Below, piece by piece: positions 1,130-24,444 of a DNA stretch of 64,000 nt (position 1 is the stretch's first letter; the number at the start of each line of letters is the position of its first letter). This DNA comes from Candidatus Binatia bacterium (GTDB lineage: Bacteria; Vulcanimicrobiota; Vulcanimicrobiia; Vulcanimicrobiales; Vulcanimicrobiaceae), in NCBI GenBank assembly GCA_035541935.1, contig DATKMJ010000056.1, forward strand, positions 1 to 64,000. The letters run 5' to 3'. Position numbers and translations under genes: made by a program. The notes under the pieces were generated by a model. It was not told the DNA's origin, searched no databases, and saw only the letters and a list, made by a program, of their open reading frames with translations.

Positions 1130-3111
<1,982 letters not shown>

Positions 3112-3153
3112 GGAAACCTCCACAAGCTTGGTAAACTGAGGGAACTGAGCGCT

Positions 3154-3180
3154 TTAGCACTCTCGGCGCACGAGCGCTAG
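3154..3180 (-). promoter_or_regulatory. CIRCE operator of groESL (HrcA site)
   Basis: TTAGCACTC, then exactly nine bases, then GAGCGCTAG. This matches the CIRCE consensus TTAGCACTC-N9-GAGTGCTAA with two changes in the second arm. It lies about 40 bases upstream of the groES start and begins 7 bases after a -10 box, so it covers the expected transcription start, the standard position for HrcA repression relieved by heat. hrcA itself is not in the window. Confidence 0.93.
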
Positions 3181-16841: not shown

Positions 16842-18286
16842 CGTCGCGCGAGCGCCTCGCGCGCGACCGCGGCATCGTCGAAGGGCAGCACGCGCTCGCC
16901 GACGATCTGATACGTCTCGTGACCCTTGCCTGCGATGAGGACGACGTCGCTCGCGCGCGCCTCTGCGATCGCCCGTTCGATCGCACGCCGGCGGTCGAGC
17001 TCGACGACGTGGTCGGCGCCGCCGACGCCGCGCTCGATCGCATCCACGATCGCTTGCGGCTCCTCGGAGCGCGGATTATCGCTCGTCAGGTAGATACGGT
17101 CGGCGTGCCGCGCGGCCACCGCGCCCATCTCCGCGCGCTTGCCGCGGTCGCGATCGCCGCCGCAGCCAAAGACGACCGCCAGCGAACCGCTCGTCGTCTC
17201 GCGCAGCGCGCGCAGCACGTTCTCGAGCGCGTCGGGGGTGTGGGCGTAATCCACCACGACGTTGACGCCGCCTGCGCTCAACCGTTCCATGCGCCCGGGG
17301 ACGCCCGGCATCGCGGCGAGGCCGCGCGCGCTCGTTGCGTCGTCGATTCCGCAGAGACGCGCGACGCCGATCGCCGCGAGCGCGTTCCAGACGTTGAACC
17401 GGCCGCCGACTTGCAGCTCGAAGCGCCGTCGGTCGAGTGTGAAGCGCGTCGCGTCGGACGCTACCTCGATATCCGCGGGCGCGAGCAGCGCCCCGGGTTG
17501 AGTTCCGTACGTTACGACCTCGCGTCCCTCGTCGCGAAGCTCGCCGGCCCATCGCGCTCCGTAGGCATCGTCGAGGTTGAGAACGGCTGCCGGCGCGAGC
17601 TCGAAGAGGCGGCGCTTCGCCGCGGCGTATGCCTCGAGCGTCTCGTGAAAGTCGAGATGGTCTCGGGTCACGTTCGTCAGCGCCGCGACGCGAAGGCGCA
17701 CGTCGTCGACGCGTCCGAGCGCGAGCGCGTGCGAACTGACCTCCATCGCGACGGCCTTCGCGCCGTCGTCGCGCATCTGCGCGAGCAACGCCTGGAGCTC
17801 GGGAGGCTGCGGCGTCGTGTTCTCCACCCGCCACCGGCGCGAACGAAATTCGGCGCCGACGGTTCCGATGATGCCGCACGGAATCTTCCCCGCATCGAAA
17901 ATCGCTGCGACCATGTGTGCCACGCTCGTCTTGCCGTTCGTGCCGGTGATGCCGATCGCATCGAGCGAGCGAGAAGGATCGTCGTAGAATGCGGCGGCGA
18001 GCAGCGAGAGCGCTCGCCGCGAATCGGCGACGGTGACGACCGTCGCGCTCGCGGGAACCGGCGTTGCGCGCTCGACGACGACCGCGGCCGCTCCGGCGGC
18101 GACGGCGTCCGCGGCGTGGTGATGGCCGTCGCTCTTCGTTCCACGCAACGCGACGAAGAGCTCGCCCGGCTTAACCGCGCGCGAGTCGATCGCGATGCCG
18201 GTAATCGGCAGATCCTGGTTGCCGCTAACGTCCGCCGCGGGCAGACGGCCGAGCAACGCCGTCAGCGGGACCCGTCTACCGTCCAT
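16838..18286 (-). CDS. murE: UDP-MurNAc-tripeptide synthetase (meso-DAP type)
   Basis: Adds the third stem-peptide residue. The ATG at 18284-18286 lies inside the last codons of the ftsI-type gene (11-base overlap) and gives 482 residues. It has ITGIAIDSRAVKPGELFVALRG, P-loop GITGTNGKTSVAHMV, ENTTPQPPELQ, LTNVTRDHLDFHETLEAYA, MERLSAGGVNVVVDYAHTPDALE and GCGGDRDRGKRAEM. The specificity motif reads DNPRSEEP; DNPR is the form found in meso-diaminopimelate-adding enzymes, so the wall is probably DAP type. The carbamylated Lys region LFVALRGTKSDGHHHA is also normal. Confidence 0.96.
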   Translation of the reverse strand: MDGRRVPLTALLGRLPAADVSGNQDLPITGIAIDSRAVKPGELFVALRGTKSDGHHHAADAVAAGAAAVVVERATPVPASATVVTVADSRRALSLLAAAFYDDPSRSLDAIGITGTNGKTSVAHMVAAIFDAGKIPCGIIGTVGAEFRSRRWRVENTTPQPPELQALLAQMRDDGAKAVAMEVSSHALALGRVDDVRLRVAALTNVTRDHLDFHETLEAYAAAKRRLFELAPAAVLNLDDAYGARWAGELRDEGREVVTYGTQPGALLAPADIEVASDATRFTLDRRRFELQVGGRFNVWNALAAIGVARLCGIDDATSARGLAAMPGVPGRMERLSAGGVNVVVDYAHTPDALENVLRALRETTSGSLAVVFGCGGDRDRGKRAEMGAVAARHADRIYLTSDNPRSEEPQAIVDAIERGVGGADHVVELDRRRAIERAIAEARASDVVLIAGKGHETYQIVGERVLPFDDAAVAREALARR

Positions 18287-20018
18287 TGCGCGCGACGACC
18301 GCGCTGGGCAGAACCCCTGCGTGCAGCATCGCGGCGCGCGCGATCTCCGAGAACGCGGGCGCTGCGACGACGCTGCCGTAATACGAACCGATAGGACGCT
18401 CGATCTTGACGTAGATGAGATATCTCGCGCGCGGATACGGAACCATGCCGATGAACGACGCGGCGTAATAGCCCGGCCGGTAGAGGCCGTCGACGACCAT
18501 CTGCGCGGTACCGGTCTTTCCGGCGGTCGCATAACCGGGGATCTGCGCGGTCGGATCGCCGGTGCCGTGCAAGACGACGGCGCGCAGAAACTCGCGCAGC
18601 TGCGCGGCGGTTCGTTCGGAGAAGATGCGGCGACCGACGGCGGGCGCGTAGTGCTGGACGAGCTTGCCGTCCTGGTCGTAGACGGCGTTGACGATGCGCG
18701 GCTGCACGAGCAGCCCGCCGTTTGCAATCGCGCAGTAGTAACGCGCCATCGCGAGCGGCGTCACCGAGACGCCCTGTCCGAACGACATCGTCGCAAGCGA
18801 CGAGCCGCTCCACTGCGAGGGCGGCGGAACGATTCCCGGGTTCTCGCCGGGCAGGCCCGCCCCCGTCGGCGACCCGAAGCCGGCCTTGCGTTCCATCGCG
18901 TAGAGCGTCTTCGCGCCGATCGCGAGCCCGACTTCCGCGGCGCCGACGTTGTGCGAGTACTCGACGATCTGCTCGAGAGTCTCGCTTCCTCCGGTTCCGG
19001 CCATGAAGCCGTCTTCCGCGTTGTGAATCGTCTGACCGCCTACCTCGAGCACGTCGTGAGCGGGGAAACGCGACGAGAGCGTCACCTTGTGCGATTCGAG
19101 CGCCGCCGCGGCGGTGACGAGCTTGTACGTCGATCCCGGCTCGTACGCGTCCATGACGGCGCGGTCGCGCCGCTGGGAATCGCCGAACTTCCAGAACCGA
19201 TTCGGATCGAAATCGGGCAGATTCGCGAGCGCGAGGATCTCGCCGGTCCACGGATCCATCACGATGACGGAGCCGTCGAGCGCGTGGAAGCTCTGCACCT
19301 GCTTCGCGAGCGCGCGCTCGGCGACGAACTGCAGGTAGGGATCGATCGTTAGCTGCAGGTTCAGGCCCGGCTGCGACGGCGTGATGATGCGTTCTTGGCC
19401 GAATGGGATCGGACGCCCGAACTCGTCCGCCTCGAGCGTTACGCGGCCCGAGCGCCCGCGCAGCACGTCGTCGTAGGCGTACTCGACGCCGTCGAGGCCG
19501 TTCTCGTCGGTTCCAACGAAGCCGAGCACGGTCGAAGCGAGGCGCCCGCTCGTGTCGACGCGCAGTCCGGTATCTTCTTCCTTTAAGTCGACGCCGAGCA
19601 GGTTGAGGCCGCGCACGCGCGCCGCGGTCTCGTGCGGAACCTTGCGCGCGATCCAGACGAACCAGAGATGCCGGTCGTGCAGCGCCGCGACGGTTGAGGC
19701 ATCGAGCTTGCCGAAGATCCCTTGGAGCTTCAGCGCGGTCGCGTCGGGATCCACGATCTCGCGCGGCACGGCGTAGACGCTCTCCGACGGCATCGAGCGA
19801 ACGAGCACGTTGCCGTTGCGGTCGAGGATGCTGCCGCGGCGCGCGAAGATTTCAACCGTGTCCGAACGCTGCGCCAGCGCCTTGCGCGCGTAGAGCGCCC
19901 CTTTGAGCCCTTGCACGTCGACGAGCCGCCACGCGAGAAAGAGCGCGACGGCGAGGCATAGATAGAAGAAGATTCGGGCGCGCATCGGAGCGACCCGCGC
20001 AAAGGTTCGCTGATGCAT
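18276..20018 (-). CDS. ftsI: Class B penicillin-binding protein, FtsI/PBP2-like transpeptidase
   Basis: Single-pass D,D-transpeptidase that crosslinks septal peptidoglycan with FtsW. It is 580 residues: a cytoplasmic start, one membrane helix at about 15-35, a dimerisation domain with RRGSILDRNGNVL, then the transpeptidase domain. The catalytic triad motifs are STYK in YEPGSTYKLVT (S296), SHN in EYSHNVGAAEVG, and KTG in TAGKTGTAQMV. Its place between ftsL-like and murE supports the division role. A C-terminal PASTA domain is absent. Confidence 0.95.
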   Translation of the reverse strand: MHQRTFARVAPMRARIFFYLCLAVALFLAWRLVDVQGLKGALYARKALAQRSDTVEIFARRGSILDRNGNVLVRSMPSESVYAVPREIVDPDATALKLQGIFGKLDASTVAALHDRHLWFVWIARKVPHETAARVRGLNLLGVDLKEEDTGLRVDTSGRLASTVLGFVGTDENGLDGVEYAYDDVLRGRSGRVTLEADEFGRPIPFGQERIITPSQPGLNLQLTIDPYLQFVAERALAKQVQSFHALDGSVIVMDPWTGEILALANLPDFDPNRFWKFGDSQRRDRAVMDAYEPGSTYKLVTAAAALESHKVTLSSRFPAHDVLEVGGQTIHNAEDGFMAGTGGSETLEQIVEYSHNVGAAEVGLAIGAKTLYAMERKAGFGSPTGAGLPGENPGIVPPPSQWSGSSLATMSFGQGVSVTPLAMARYYCAIANGGLLVQPRIVNAVYDQDGKLVQHYAPAVGRRIFSERTAAQLREFLRAVVLHGTGDPTAQIPGYATAGKTGTAQMVVDGLYRPGYYAASFIGMVPYPRARYLIYVKIERPIGSYYGSVVAAPAFSEIARAAMLHAGVLPSAVVARNGR

Positions 20019-20038
20019 CGCGCGGCGGCTCTAGCGGC

Positions 20039-20488
20039 CTACTGCTGGCGGCGCAACGCCGGCGCGAAGAATCCGGCGAGCGACGAGAACACCGGGAAGC
20101 GCAGTCCGGATTGCGCGACTCGCGGCTGCTCGAGGCGAACGACGGCGAGACGCTGCGGCTCGTGCATGCCGAGGCGCGCCGCGAGCTGCGCCAGCCGATC
20201 GTCGGAGCGCAACGCGGCGATGCGGTCGTCGAGCCGCATCGTCTGCTCCTGCAGGGCCTCGCGCTGCGCGCGCGCCTTCGCCACTGCGTAACTCAGTCCG
20301 GTCAGGCTCGACGTCAGCACGACGTAGCCCATGAGCAGCACGAGCACGCAGAAGAGCGCGGTGAAGACGCGAGCGACGCCCGTGTAGCGGGCGCGCGACT
20401 TCCGCACGATTCGCCGCTGCGTCGCGGCTCGAGCGGTGCGCGGGTTTGCGATGCGCGAGGGTCGGTCGAAGAAACGCGGCTGGACCAC
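20039..20488 (-). CDS. ftsL: FtsL/FtsB-like division protein
   Basis: A 149-residue bitopic protein: basic cytoplasmic N-terminus, one membrane helix at about 40-60 (VFTALFCVLVLLMGYVVLTS), then a coiled-coil-like stretch KARAQREALQEQTMRLDDRIAALRSDDRLAQLAARLGM, ending in a Pro/Leu/Phe-rich tail. This topology and the slot between rsmH and ftsI identify FtsL, which recruits the FtsQLB-FtsWI complex. The GTG start directly follows the rsmH TGA with no gap. FtsL sequences diverge widely, so the call rests on architecture and place. Confidence 0.85.
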   Translation of the reverse strand: MVQPRFFDRPSRIANPRTARAATQRRIVRKSRARYTGVARVFTALFCVLVLLMGYVVLTSSLTGLSYAVAKARAQREALQEQTMRLDDRIAALRSDDRLAQLAARLGMHEPQRLAVVRLEQPRVAQSGLRFPVFSSLAGFFAPALRRQQ

Positions 20489-21358
20489 TCAACTCACCTT
20501 TCGTTCTGCCGCGCGAAGCTTCGCGCTGCGCGAGCGGCGATTCTCGGTTACTTCTCGGTCGTCGGGAAGAACGGGGCGCTTCGTGAGGACGTCGAGGCGC
20601 TCGTCGTCGCGGAAGGTCTCCTTGACGATGCGATCCTCGCCCGAATGAAAGCTGATCGCGACGATGCGTCCGGCCTTGCGCAGCCTGCCGATCGCGCCGT
20701 GCAGGCCGTCCCGCAGCGCGTCGAGCTCGTCGTTGACGACGATGCGCAGCGCTTGGAAGACGCGCGTCGCGGGATGAATCCGCTCGCGCCGGCCGCGCCG
20801 CTGCACGACGCCGGCGACGAGGCTCGCGAACTCCGACGTCGTGTTCGGAAGCGTTCCGCGCGAACGGCGCGTTACGATAACGCGCGCGATGCGCCGCGCT
20901 TGGCGTTCCTGGCCGTAGCGGAAGAAGATCTCCGCGAGCTCCGCCTCGCTCGCGGTCGCAAGAATATCGTAGGCGCTCGGCCCGACCGCGGGGTTCATGC
21001 GCATATCCAGCGGCCCCGTGCTTCCCAGCGAGAAGCCGCGGTCCGCATCCTCAATTTGCATCGAAGAGACTCCCAGATCGAAGAGAACGCCGTCGACCGT
21101 CTCGATCGAGAGCCGGTCGAGGACGTTGGGAAGATCCCGAAAGTTGGCTGACGCGAAGGTGAAGCGCGGATCGGAGATCGCCTCCGCCCGCCGCACCGCT
21201 TGCGGATCGGCGTCTATTCCGATCAGGCGTCCCGAGTCGAGGCGCTCCAAGATCGAACGCGTATGGCCGCCCGCACCGAAGGTCGCATCCACGTAGATGC
21301 CGCCCGGCCGGACCGCGAGATACTCGACGGCCGGTTTGAGCAGCACGGCAACGTGCAT
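20489..21358 (-). CDS. rsmH: 16S rRNA (cytosine(1402)-N(4))-methyltransferase RsmH
   Basis: SAM-dependent methylase that modifies C1402 in the ribosomal P site. About 289 residues. Motifs are YVDATFGAGGHTRSILERL (SAM loop), IGIDADPQAV, DGVLFDLGVSSMQIEDADRGFS and the C-terminal RIVAISFHSGEDRIVKETFR. The ATG at 21356-21358 is preferred; a GTG directly before it is also possible. It follows mraZ by 17 bases, as in most dcw clusters. Confidence 0.96.
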   Translation of the reverse strand: MHVAVLLKPAVEYLAVRPGGIYVDATFGAGGHTRSILERLDSGRLIGIDADPQAVRRAEAISDPRFTFASANFRDLPNVLDRLSIETVDGVLFDLGVSSMQIEDADRGFSLGSTGPLDMRMNPAVGPSAYDILATASEAELAEIFFRYGQERQARRIARVIVTRRSRGTLPNTTSEFASLVAGVVQRRGRRERIHPATRVFQALRIVVNDELDALRDGLHGAIGRLRKAGRIVAISFHSGEDRIVKETFRDDERLDVLTKRPVLPDDREVTENRRSRSAKLRAAERKVS

Positions 21359-21375
21359 CACGCGCGCGCCACATC

Positions 21376-21816
21376 CTATAACCCAAACTCGGCCATGAAG
21401 CCGGGTGTCTCGTCGTCCGGAGGCGCGCCGAACGTGTAGCGTTCCTTGGCCCAGACTTCGATTCGAGTCAGGAGCCCGACGGAGACGACTTGGCGTTCGA
21501 TGCCCGCGTAGGAGCGAAGGAGCGCCGGGACGAGCATGCGGCCTTGGCTGTCGGGCGCAACCTCCTCGGTGTGCGCGAAGAGGTATCTAAAGTAGCGCCG
21601 ATACTTATCGTCCTTCTGGTGGACCGACTCGAATCGGCCGCAAAGCTCGATCCAGGTGGCCATCGGGTAGAGGGCGAGGCAGGGGTCCGGGTAGGCGATG
21701 GTTAGGACGAACTGGGGGCCGAGGCGCTCGCGGAACCGCGCAGGCACGATGAGGCGTCCCTTGTGGTCAAGGGCATGCTGCTCCGAGCCGGCAAAGCGCG
21801 GCAGTTCAGCGTGCAA
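21376..21816 (-). CDS. mraZ: Transcriptional regulator MraZ
   Basis: First gene of the dcw operon. MraZ is a ring-forming DNA-binding protein that regulates its own operon. It is 146 residues with two SpoVT/AbrB-like MraZ repeats: the first around HALDHKGRLIVPARFRERLG, the second around EEVAPDSQGRMLVPALLRSYAGI. Start is TTG at 21814-21816, supported by GGAGG 5 bases upstream. The leader holds a promoter, period-10 repeats and a CIRCE (separate entries). Confidence 0.95.
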   Translation of the reverse strand: MHAELPRFAGSEQHALDHKGRLIVPARFRERLGPQFVLTIAYPDPCLALYPMATWIELCGRFESVHQKDDKYRRYFRYLFAHTEEVAPDSQGRMLVPALLRSYAGIERQVVSVGLLTRIEVWAKERYTFGAPPDDETPGFMAEFGL

Positions 21817-21830
21817 AGAATCCTCCGCAA

Positions 21831-21860
21831 AGCACCACTAGGCACTACTTCACACCACTA
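21831..21860 (-). promoter_or_regulatory. Candidate MraZ box: three 10-bp direct repeats
   Basis: On the minus strand three successive decamers read TAGTGGTGTG, AAGTAGTGCC and TAGTGGTGCT. MraZ binds short direct repeats with a 10-base period, and mycoplasma boxes contain AAGTG cores, so period and content both fit. The repeats run from the -10 box into the leader just upstream of the mraZ ribosome binding site, suiting autorepression. Inference from pattern; not tested. Confidence 0.65.
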
Positions 21861-21885
21861 TACGCCCCAGGGTTGGCGAAGGCAA
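21857..21885 (-). promoter_or_regulatory. Sigma-A-type promoter of the dcw operon
   Basis: On the minus strand TTGCCT and TATAGT are separated by exactly 17 bases. The predicted start falls about 35 bases upstream of mraZ, inside the triple decamer repeat. The CIRCE element ends 5 bases upstream of this -35 box. Confidence 0.7.
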
Positions 21886-21890
21886 GGCTG

Positions 21891-21917
21891 TTAGCACTCC
21901 CCTAAGAGGAGTGCTAT
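21891..21917 (-). promoter_or_regulatory. CIRCE element (HrcA operator) upstream of mraZ
   Basis: TTAGCACTC, nine bases, GAGTGCTAT: first arm perfect, second arm 8 of 9 against CIRCE. It is a better match than the groES copy. It lies between the stop of a minus-strand lipoprotein gene and mraZ, immediately upstream of the mraZ -35 box; no plus-strand gene starts here. CIRCE normally sits at the transcription start, so this upstream placement is unusual. It lacks a T tract on either side, so an intrinsic terminator is unlikely. Confidence 0.85.
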
Positions 21918-21968: not shown

Positions 21969-22958
21969 CTAGAGTGCGATCAGCAGCGGATCGCGCTGCC
22001 CTTTCTTGGCGCCGATCTTGTAGGTCTTCGTCGGTTTCGCCGACGGCTTCGTCGCGTCGAACAGGTCGATCTGGCCGTTGACGTCGGTCGCGTTCGGCGC
22101 GGCTGCGTAGAGGACGTTCGAGGAGTCTACGGCGACCCCGGCATAGCCGTAATCGCCGGCGCCAAAGGTCGCCGCGGGCTTCGCGTTTCCGTTCTGCGAG
22201 CCGCCGAACTCGAGCACCATACCGTCGTCCTCGTCGGCCACGTAGACGTTGCCATTGGCGTCGACGGCGATGCCCTCGGGTTCGTTGACGAGCGTCTTCG
22301 AACCGGCGATCGTTCGGATCGGCGCAACGTTCTGAGCCCCCGGCGCCAGCGGCGCGAATTCCAACACGTCGTTTGTGCAGTTCGTCCCGAAGCCTTGCTG
22401 CGTTACGAAGAGATCGCCTTTGCTATCTACTGCGATTCCGATGGCCGCGCAGAGCGTCGTCTTCTTGCCGGAGAGCGTCGCGATCGGCGTGCTGCCGAGC
22501 GGATCCGCCGCGTACTCCGAGATTTCGCCCGTGTACTGATCCGCGATGTAGACGTGCGCCCCATCGCCGGCGAGCCCGTCGGCGGTCAGGCCCTTGTCGA
22601 AAGCGATCGGCGCGGCGTTGCCGCTCGCGCCGGCGGCGTACTCGTAAACGCCGAGCGCCGTTCCGCTCCCTGAGACGTAGACGTTCCCTTCCGCGTCCGT
22701 CGTCGCGCCGAGCGGACCCGAGAGTCTCGTCTTCTTCCCGGAGATGAGCGTCAGGCGTTTGCCGGTGGTCGCGTCGAACGTGCCGAGCGACTTCGAGAGC
22801 GAAAACGGAACGACGATCTCCTGCGCCGATTTCGCCGGACGCGCGCCGGCTTGGGCGCCTGCGCCGGGCGCCGGCCCGGTGACGCCGGGCAACGAGCAGC
22901 CCGCCAGCACCGAAGCCGAGGCAAATGCAAAGAAAGCGGCCGATAAATAACGGTACAT
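21969..22958 (-). CDS. Beta-propeller (NHL-like) lipoprotein
   Basis: A 329-residue secreted protein. The lipobox SVLAGC puts the lipidated Cys at residue 21. After a Gly/Ala/Pro-rich linker come repeated units of about 45-50 residues with the pattern G-hydrophobic-AVD-x-x-G-N-hydrophobic-YVAD (for example GIAVDANGNVYVADEDDG, ATTDAEGNVYVSGSG), typical of NHL or SMP-30-like six-bladed propellers. No catalytic motif is seen; ligand unknown. It is monocistronic, ending 150 bases before mraZ on the same strand. Confidence 0.8.
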   Translation of the reverse strand: MYRYLSAAFFAFASASVLAGCSLPGVTGPAPGAGAQAGARPAKSAQEIVVPFSLSKSLGTFDATTGKRLTLISGKKTRLSGPLGATTDAEGNVYVSGSGTALGVYEYAAGASGNAAPIAFDKGLTADGLAGDGAHVYIADQYTGEISEYAADPLGSTPIATLSGKKTTLCAAIGIAVDSKGDLFVTQQGFGTNCTNDVLEFAPLAPGAQNVAPIRTIAGSKTLVNEPEGIAVDANGNVYVADEDDGMVLEFGGSQNGNAKPAATFGAGDYGYAGVAVDSSNVLYAAAPNATDVNGQIDLFDATKPSAKPTKTYKIGAKKGQRDPLLIAL

Positions 22959-23006: not shown

Positions 23007-24362
23007 CTACGGAGGGGCGAGCATCGCGGCGATATCCGACGACGCGGTCGGATAGCCGAAGAGCACGCTCCCGAGGGCGATCGCGGGAATCTTCGCGCGG
23101 ATCGCGAGCGCGAAGACGTTGATGAGTTCCTCGGCATGCGGCGAGAGAACGTGGGCGCCGAGAATCAAGCCGCTTCCCTCTTCGATGAGGATCTTGTATG
23201 CGGCGGCGCGCGCGCGCACGCGGCGCGACGAGTACCACGTTACCGCGTCGCCTTCGCGCACGGCGAATCGCAGCCCGAGCGCTCGCGCCCGCTCCTCCGT
23301 CAATCCGGCCGACCCGAGCGCGGGATCGGTATAGACGAGGCTGGCAAGCCCCGCGAAATCCATCGGGTAACGATTGCCTTCGAGCAGGTTGCGCGCGACG
23401 AGGTCGCCCTCGGCGGCGGCCGTCGGCGTCAGCGGCAGCCCGCCGCCGTCGGCGCAGTCGCCGACCGCGTAAACCGCGGGATTGCTCGTGCTCTGCAGGT
23501 ACTCGTTCACCTTGACGCCCCTCGGCGTGCGTTCGACGCCGGCCGCCTCGAGCGCGAGCGCGTCGAGATCGGGAACGCGCCCTGCGGCGTGAACGGCGAG
23601 ATCGCAATCGTACGCGAACTCCGTTCCGTCGCGCGTTCCGTGCAGGCGCAGGCCCTCGGCCGTCTTCTCGACGGCGCCGAGATCGACGTTCACGCGCACG
23701 TCGATGCCGACGCTCGCGCTGACGCCGACGATGCGATCGACGAGCGAGGGCTCGAAGCCGGTCAGCACGCGCGGGCCGCGTTGAAAGACGACCGGCGCAG
23801 CTCCGGCGCGCGCGCCGAGGTGCGCGAACTCAAACGCGATGTAGCCGCCCCCGACGAACGCGATGCGCTCGGGCAGCCGATCGAGATCGAGAAAGCCGGT
23901 GCTCGTGATGAGATGCTCTTCGCCCGTCAGATGCAGCGTCTGCGGACGCGCGCCGGCGGCGAGCACGATGCGAGGCGAGTGCAGTGGCTCGCCTGCCACG
24001 ACGAGCGTCGTCGCGTCGGTAAACTTCGCCTCGCCGTGATACGTTGCGATTCCGGCCGCGCGGAACTGCGCTTCGCGCGCGGCGGGCACCGGATCGGTGA
24101 ACGTTCGCTTGAATGCCATCAACTGGGGCCAGTCGATGCGGGCGCCGCCCGCGATGCCGCTGCCGGTCATGCGCCGATCCCAATCGACGAGCTCGGCCGC
24201 GCCGACGAGAACTTTCTTCGGATCGCAACCCCGCAGTTCGCACGTGCCGCCGTACGGAAGCTCGTCGACGACCGCGATGCGCCATCCGGCCTTCGCACAG
24301 CCGAGAGCGGCGCTCGTTCCGGAGCTTCCGGTGCCGACGACGACGAGGTCGAACTCGCTCAT
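23007..24362 (-). CDS. Pyridine nucleotide-disulfide oxidoreductase (glutathione reductase-like)
   Basis: FAD/NAD(P) flavoprotein of 451 residues using the ATG at 24360-24362 (MSEFDLVVVGTGSSGTSAALG). It has the redox pair C41-x4-C46 in GGTCELRGCDPKK, an NAD(P) loop IAFVGGGYIAFEFAHLG, and FAD motif YAVGDCADGGGLPLTP. The C-terminal dimerisation domain is present, but the usual catalytic HPT-x-x-E reads YPTASSD: His is Tyr437 and Glu is Ser442, next to Asp443. The substrate is therefore uncertain; dihydrolipoamide, glutathione, mercuric-reductase-like and related activities are all conceivable. It could supply E3 activity for the E2-E1 fusion elsewhere in the window, but nothing shows this. Confidence 0.85.
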   Translation of the reverse strand: MSEFDLVVVGTGSSGTSAALGCAKAGWRIAVVDELPYGGTCELRGCDPKKVLVGAAELVDWDRRMTGSGIAGGARIDWPQLMAFKRTFTDPVPAAREAQFRAAGIATYHGEAKFTDATTLVVAGEPLHSPRIVLAAGARPQTLHLTGEEHLITSTGFLDLDRLPERIAFVGGGYIAFEFAHLGARAGAAPVVFQRGPRVLTGFEPSLVDRIVGVSASVGIDVRVNVDLGAVEKTAEGLRLHGTRDGTEFAYDCDLAVHAAGRVPDLDALALEAAGVERTPRGVKVNEYLQSTSNPAVYAVGDCADGGGLPLTPTAAAEGDLVARNLLEGNRYPMDFAGLASLVYTDPALGSAGLTEERARALGLRFAVREGDAVTWYSSRRVRARAAAYKILIEEGSGLILGAHVLSPHAEELINVFALAIRAKIPAIALGSVLFGYPTASSDIAAMLAPP

Positions 24363-24444
24363 GCGCGACTCTGCCGCGCGGCGCGGCGCCATTCCTAGCG
24401 GGCGGTAGGCGTCGCTCAGGCGCGCTCAAGGGAGTGCGGCTATC

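Follow-up and report, generated by a model that had tools for sequence, protein, structure and literature searches.

A CIRCE operator upstream of mraZ, probably orphaned by the loss of a divergent hsp20 gene

The mraZ promoter and its CIRCE

The window, by which we mean the whole 64-kb stretch of DNA that was analysed, contains a dcw cluster that begins with mraZ and continues with rsmH, a division transpeptidase, murE, murF and mraY; a small ORF in the position of ftsL (20031-20492) had no Pfam match. The mraZ promoter has the form TTGCCT-17-TATAGT (21885-21857), and upstream of it lies an inverted repeat matching CIRCE, the operator of the heat-shock repressor HrcA. The features of the window referred to below are:

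3154 to 3180, no strand: CIRCE at groESL, the second one in the window, two mismatches
18276 to 20018, minus strand: division-type penicillin-binding protein, ftsI/spoVD-like, part of the dcw cluster
20489 to 21361, minus strand: rsmH (mraW), the next dcw gene
21376 to 21816, minus strand: mraZ, 146 aa, TTG start at 21816 (TIGR00242, PF02381)
21826 to 21821, minus strand: Shine-Dalgarno sequence GGAGGA of mraZ
21830 to 21859, minus strand: three 10-bp repeats, AGTGGTGTGA / AGTAGTGCCT / AGTGGTGCTT, probable MraZ autoregulatory boxes
21857 to 21862, minus strand: -10 box TATAGT of the mraZ promoter, conserved in the genus and the family
21880 to 21885, minus strand: -35 box TTGCCT of the mraZ promoter, conserved in the genus
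21891 to 21917, no strand: CIRCE (HrcA operator), TTAGCACTC-N9-GAGTGCTAT, 17/18 arm positions
21969 to 22958, minus strand: gene of an NHL-repeat protein, placed where relatives have hsp20
23007 to 24392, minus strand: gene of a pyridine nucleotide-disulphide oxidoreductase, the synteny anchor, which flanks hsp20 or CIRCE in relatives

A preliminary description of this DNA had claimed a 9-9-9 CIRCE with a perfect first arm and a second arm matching at eight of nine positions, just upstream of the mraZ -35 box, and the letters agree. The element reads TTAGCACTC-CCCTAAGAG-GAGTGCTAT; compared with the consensus TTAGCACTC-N9-GAGTGCTAA it is a 9-N9-9 inverted repeat with one mismatch, the left arm matching at 9/9 and the right arm at 8/9 positions. 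It ends 5 bp upstream of TTGCCT, spans roughly -41 to -67 of the promoter, and flanks both hexamers without overlapping them. The description was also right that this site is closer to the consensus than the one at groES (one mismatch vs two), and these two were the only CIRCEs in the window at ≤3 mismatches. Shuffled windows led us to expect 0.02 sites per window at this threshold, and none of the shuffles contained two. The single mismatch lies within the limit of at most two mutations that a study on Mycoplasma gallisepticum gives for functional CIRCEs (PMC5138195).

HrcA itself is encoded in the same genome (G000:C39, 351 aa, PF01628 match with E 1.3e-53). The 2.4-Mb assembly holds five CIRCEs at ≤3 mismatches, against one for a reversed-pattern control: at hrcA (C39), groESL, mraZ, a zinc-ribbon gene (C28) and, the weakest, upstream of an hsp20 gene (C70). 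The core of the regulon thus bears the element, at C39:7403 upstream of hrcA and at C56:3154 at groESL. Judged by its sequence and setting, the mraZ element is very likely to be a genuine CIRCE that can be bound. It resembles the class I operators of groESL, hrcA-dnaK and hsp20 in its fit to the consensus and in the company of an hrcA gene with its own CIRCE, a groESL CIRCE and hsp20 CIRCEs in relatives; it differs from them in having mraZ as the closest gene downstream and no chaperone gene as a neighbour, and in its location upstream of the -35 box. The CIRCE targets reported for delta-proteobacteria are groESL, hrcA-grpE-dnaKJ and rpoH (PMC545781).

The 10-bp repeats begin within the -10 box, run downstream, and are kept across the mraZ upstream regions of the relatives. 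Three repeats in this position recall the MraZ box arrays that autoregulate dcw clusters, and we presume them to be boxes of this kind. The repeat of the window is AGTGGTG, which we take to differ from the E. coli form.

Gene order in the genus and the origin of the site

The window belongs to a genome of Ca. Eremiobacterota, and the relatives compared were metagenome-assembled genomes of this group. The region upstream of mraZ was analysed in 61/85 cases; the start finder missed 24, among them the genus member G001, which was examined separately. With G001, thirteen genomes of the genus were covered. The preliminary description had held that absence of the element in close relatives would refute its reading, and the outcome was divided: CIRCE was present at 8/13 loci of the genus, but was absent from 5/13 and from all 49 upstream regions outside the genus, where the best candidate had six mismatches.

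The loci of the genus fall into several states. In G005, G008 and G010 a divergent hsp20 gene (PF00011) stands opposite mraZ, and CIRCE lies between the two genes, nearer to hsp20. The distance to the hsp20 start, upstream of which the element sits, is about 60, 23 and 60 nt, respectively, and the element is perfect in G005 and carries two mismatches in G008 and one in G010. G007 retains a broken hsp20 (a pseudogene) beside a CIRCE with one mismatch. In a further four genomes hsp20 is absent and CIRCE stands alone, with one mismatch in G013 and in the window genome, two in G011 and three in G002. Neither hsp20 nor CIRCE precedes mraZ in G003, G009, G014, G016 and G001. G001 has its ortholog of the linked hsp20 on another contig (82% identity), where the gene carries a one-mismatch CIRCE of its own, while mraZ has none; gene and operator therefore travel together.

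Synteny places the window locus in this series. The oxidoreductase homolog flanks the locus in several relatives, and in the window it was matched at 24362-23016 with 68% identity over 449 aa. The NHL-repeat gene separates it from the CIRCE; the other loci of the genus that were examined have no homolog of this gene in that position. The missing chaperone neighbour, present at the orthologous site in the three genomes with an intact hsp20, weakens the case for a working chaperone operator but not the identity of the CIRCE, because such a neighbour is a habit of these operators and not part of the motif's definition. A tblastn search for hsp20 debris between the NHL-repeat gene and the CIRCE, and at the other loci lacking hsp20, found none except the G007 pseudogene. 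The nearest hsp20 paralog in this genome, on contig C21, was considered as a relocated copy. It shares 60% identity with the linked genes but 72% with another paralog, and it lacks a CIRCE; a move of the missing gene to C21 is therefore improbable.

In a tree of mraZ and rsmH, the orphan locus G013 was sister to the hsp20-bearing G005 (support 99/98), the orphans G002 and G011 (100/100) grouped with the hsp20-bearing G010 (88/88), and G007 with its pseudogene joined the clade without CIRCE (100/99). Orphans are thus nested with hsp20-bearing genomes, so hsp20 was lost repeatedly, although the number of losses is uncertain because the basal forks are weak. CIRCE was retained after the loss in three lineages, that of the window included, and was lost in others. 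From these placements, the hsp20/CIRCE/mraZ arrangement is best traced to the root of the genus as sampled.

Since CIRCE lies beside a divergent hsp20 in relatives and hsp20 was lost repeatedly, we interpret the element as the orphaned operator of an hsp20 gene lost from the lineage of the window, with a probability of about 0.78 (about 0.8 for the origin alone). The ancestor of the genus would have had an oxidoreductase gene converging on hsp20, followed by CIRCE and then mraZ pointing away, CIRCE having come to lie before mraZ because it served the divergent hsp20. The latter would then have disappeared several times, and in the lineage of the window the NHL-repeat gene would have taken its slot, leaving CIRCE 5 bp from the -35 box. 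As far as its sequence tells, the element truly belongs to the CIRCE family, and its unusual location would be explained by the disappearance of the gene with which it was first paired. The opposite order of events, with an ancient CIRCE at mraZ on which hsp20 landed later, is conceivable in a strict sense, but the absence outside the genus and the case of G001 speak against it.

Present use at mraZ

Where the element came from and what it does now are separate questions, and the probabilities of the answers overlap. For its present use, we see an even chance that the site is a pure relic, whose function went with hsp20 and whose decay is pending; HrcA might still bind it, leaving mraZ unaffected. 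The disappearance of hsp20 down to any remnant that tblastn could find fits this, as do the complete loss of the site in G001 and in the clade of G003, G009, G014 and G016, and the variable spacing between CIRCE and the mraZ -35 box, about 5 to 81 bp among genus loci, which is not the pattern expected of an mraZ operator common to these loci. A relic is harder to reconcile with the 17/18 match in the window and the one-mismatch site in G013. The lack of hsp20 debris in the window moreover suggests that the loss was not very recent, so that drift should have shown by now.

The conservation of the arms also argues against decay. Between G002 and G011, both lacking hsp20, 1/18 arm positions had changed vs 16/42 neighbouring intergenic positions (Fisher one-sided p=0.008, from two genomes, hand-defined sites and a single alignment). 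The same contrast was seen between G013 and G005 (1/18 vs 23/57), although it says less because this pair contains a working hsp20 operator.

A somewhat less probable reading is that the site has become a heat-shock operator dedicated to the dcw cluster, maintained by selection, at which HrcA would repress mraZ and heat would derepress division and wall synthesis. It is favoured by the near-perfect site so close to the -35 box, by its retention in the three hsp20-less lineages and by the arm conservation in G002 and G011. The preliminary description had stated that there is no other gene for the CIRCE to serve, and in this genome mraZ is indeed the only one left: in the hsp20 direction, on the opposite strand, the window has neither a promoter-like site nor an evident gene. 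Against a dedicated operator stand the origin at hsp20, the loss of CIRCE in five of the thirteen genus genomes, the unconserved spacing to mraZ, and the two to three mismatches of the orphan sites in G002 and G011. The proposed coupling of heat stress to envelope synthesis accordingly held in part, in that the CIRCE is real, HrcA is present and mraZ is the remaining gene, but it is weakened by the relatives, in the light of which the element is most simply an hsp20 operator.

By analogy with known CIRCEs, HrcA would normally still occupy the site and leave it upon heat or protein-folding stress. Bound HrcA would lower transcription of mraZ and the dcw cluster because of the promoter stretch that the site now covers, and heat would then derepress the cluster, a step of which we are less sure and which we would not rate as high as even. 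Control of mraZ by HrcA itself is kept possible by the arm conservation and the proximity to the -35 box, and we hold it only tentatively. If true, the class I heat-shock repressor would let heat stress act directly on division and wall synthesis. In the openly searchable literature naming CIRCE, HrcA and mraZ together, we found no report of a CIRCE at mraZ or of a link between HrcA and mraZ, which is weak evidence of novelty. Even as a relic, the locus is a clear case with its stages intact (complete hsp20, pseudogene, orphan site, no site), and shows how an operator stays beside another promoter, where it may be re-used. A lone operator should be compared with relatives before regulatory coupling is inferred from it.

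In many relatives a different stress operator stands at this promoter, which also favours a dedicated dcw operator. A perfect CGAAC-N4-GTTCG was found within 250 nt upstream of mraZ in 22/61 cases across the class (5 in the genus and 17 outside; expectation 0.02 in a first-order Markov simulation), including L051, L052, L055, L057, L058, L063, L074, L078 and L079. The motif with one change recurs upstream of lexA (30 loci, L136-L165), in nearly all of them as a pair of copies separated by about 60 bp. It is therefore very probably the box that LexA recognises in this phylum, whose form would be close to CGAAC-N4-GTTYG. In the window, mraZ is preceded by a CIRCE and by no LexA box, for which the best candidate has three mismatches. 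A stress repressor operator at the mraZ promoter has precedents: the E. coli dcw cluster has three SOS boxes at mraZ, with LexA control known or inferred (PMC3265435), and an mraZ site from a gut metagenome was bound in vitro by B. subtilis LexA (PMC3998124). Judging from these motifs, a stress operator at mraZ is common in the relatives and is usually of the SOS type, and SOS control of dcw looks ancestral in the family.

Within the genus, CIRCE and LexA box were mutually exclusive upstream of mraZ, except in G007, and this distribution hints that one operator replaced the other. The locus of G007 (L053) has the hsp20 pseudogene, CIRCE and LexA box together, and is possibly an intermediate between the SOS and heat-shock arrangements. 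It is a more specific and unlikely proposal that mraZ and the dcw cluster took over the CIRCE of hsp20 and lost an ancestral LexA box, which would have moved them from DNA-damage to protein-folding stress control.

It is highly improbable that the palindrome acts at the RNA level, forming the 3' hairpin or the boundary of the transcript of the upstream NHL gene. As RNA it would form an 11-bp hairpin (51-nt stretch, -27.1 kcal/mol, z -4.2), and it lies 51 nt after the NHL-gene stop codon; yet it is followed by no T-tract and covered by no terminator-like match, so the earlier claim that nothing marks it as a terminator stands although it could fold, and the specific 9-N9-9 CIRCE is common to genomes without the NHL gene. 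A chance match has a negligible probability, given the shuffled windows and the orthologous sites in seven sister genomes.

Other CIRCEs of the genome

The CIRCE on contig C28 (L001:1501-1527, G000:C28:11479-11505) has one mismatch; 19 nt downstream of it lies a small gene for a zinc-ribbon protein (PF09723, FmdB-like). A spacer near-identical to its GGTCAATGA was seen again at CIRCEs of other genus members, and the gene may be another non-chaperone target of HrcA. The site on C70 (L120, G000:C70:2141-2167) has three mismatches and precedes a different hsp20 paralog, at about 95 nt from its matched domain; the ortholog of this paralog in G003 has a similar three-mismatch site in front.

In the window, groESL (1130-3180) is about 19 kb from mraZ (21816). 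CIRCE motifs were likewise found 22-29 kb from mraZ on one contig in G043, G045 and G047, genomes of the same class. The sharing of a contig by CIRCE and mraZ in several genomes of the class suggests that the linkage of groESL and dcw may be old.
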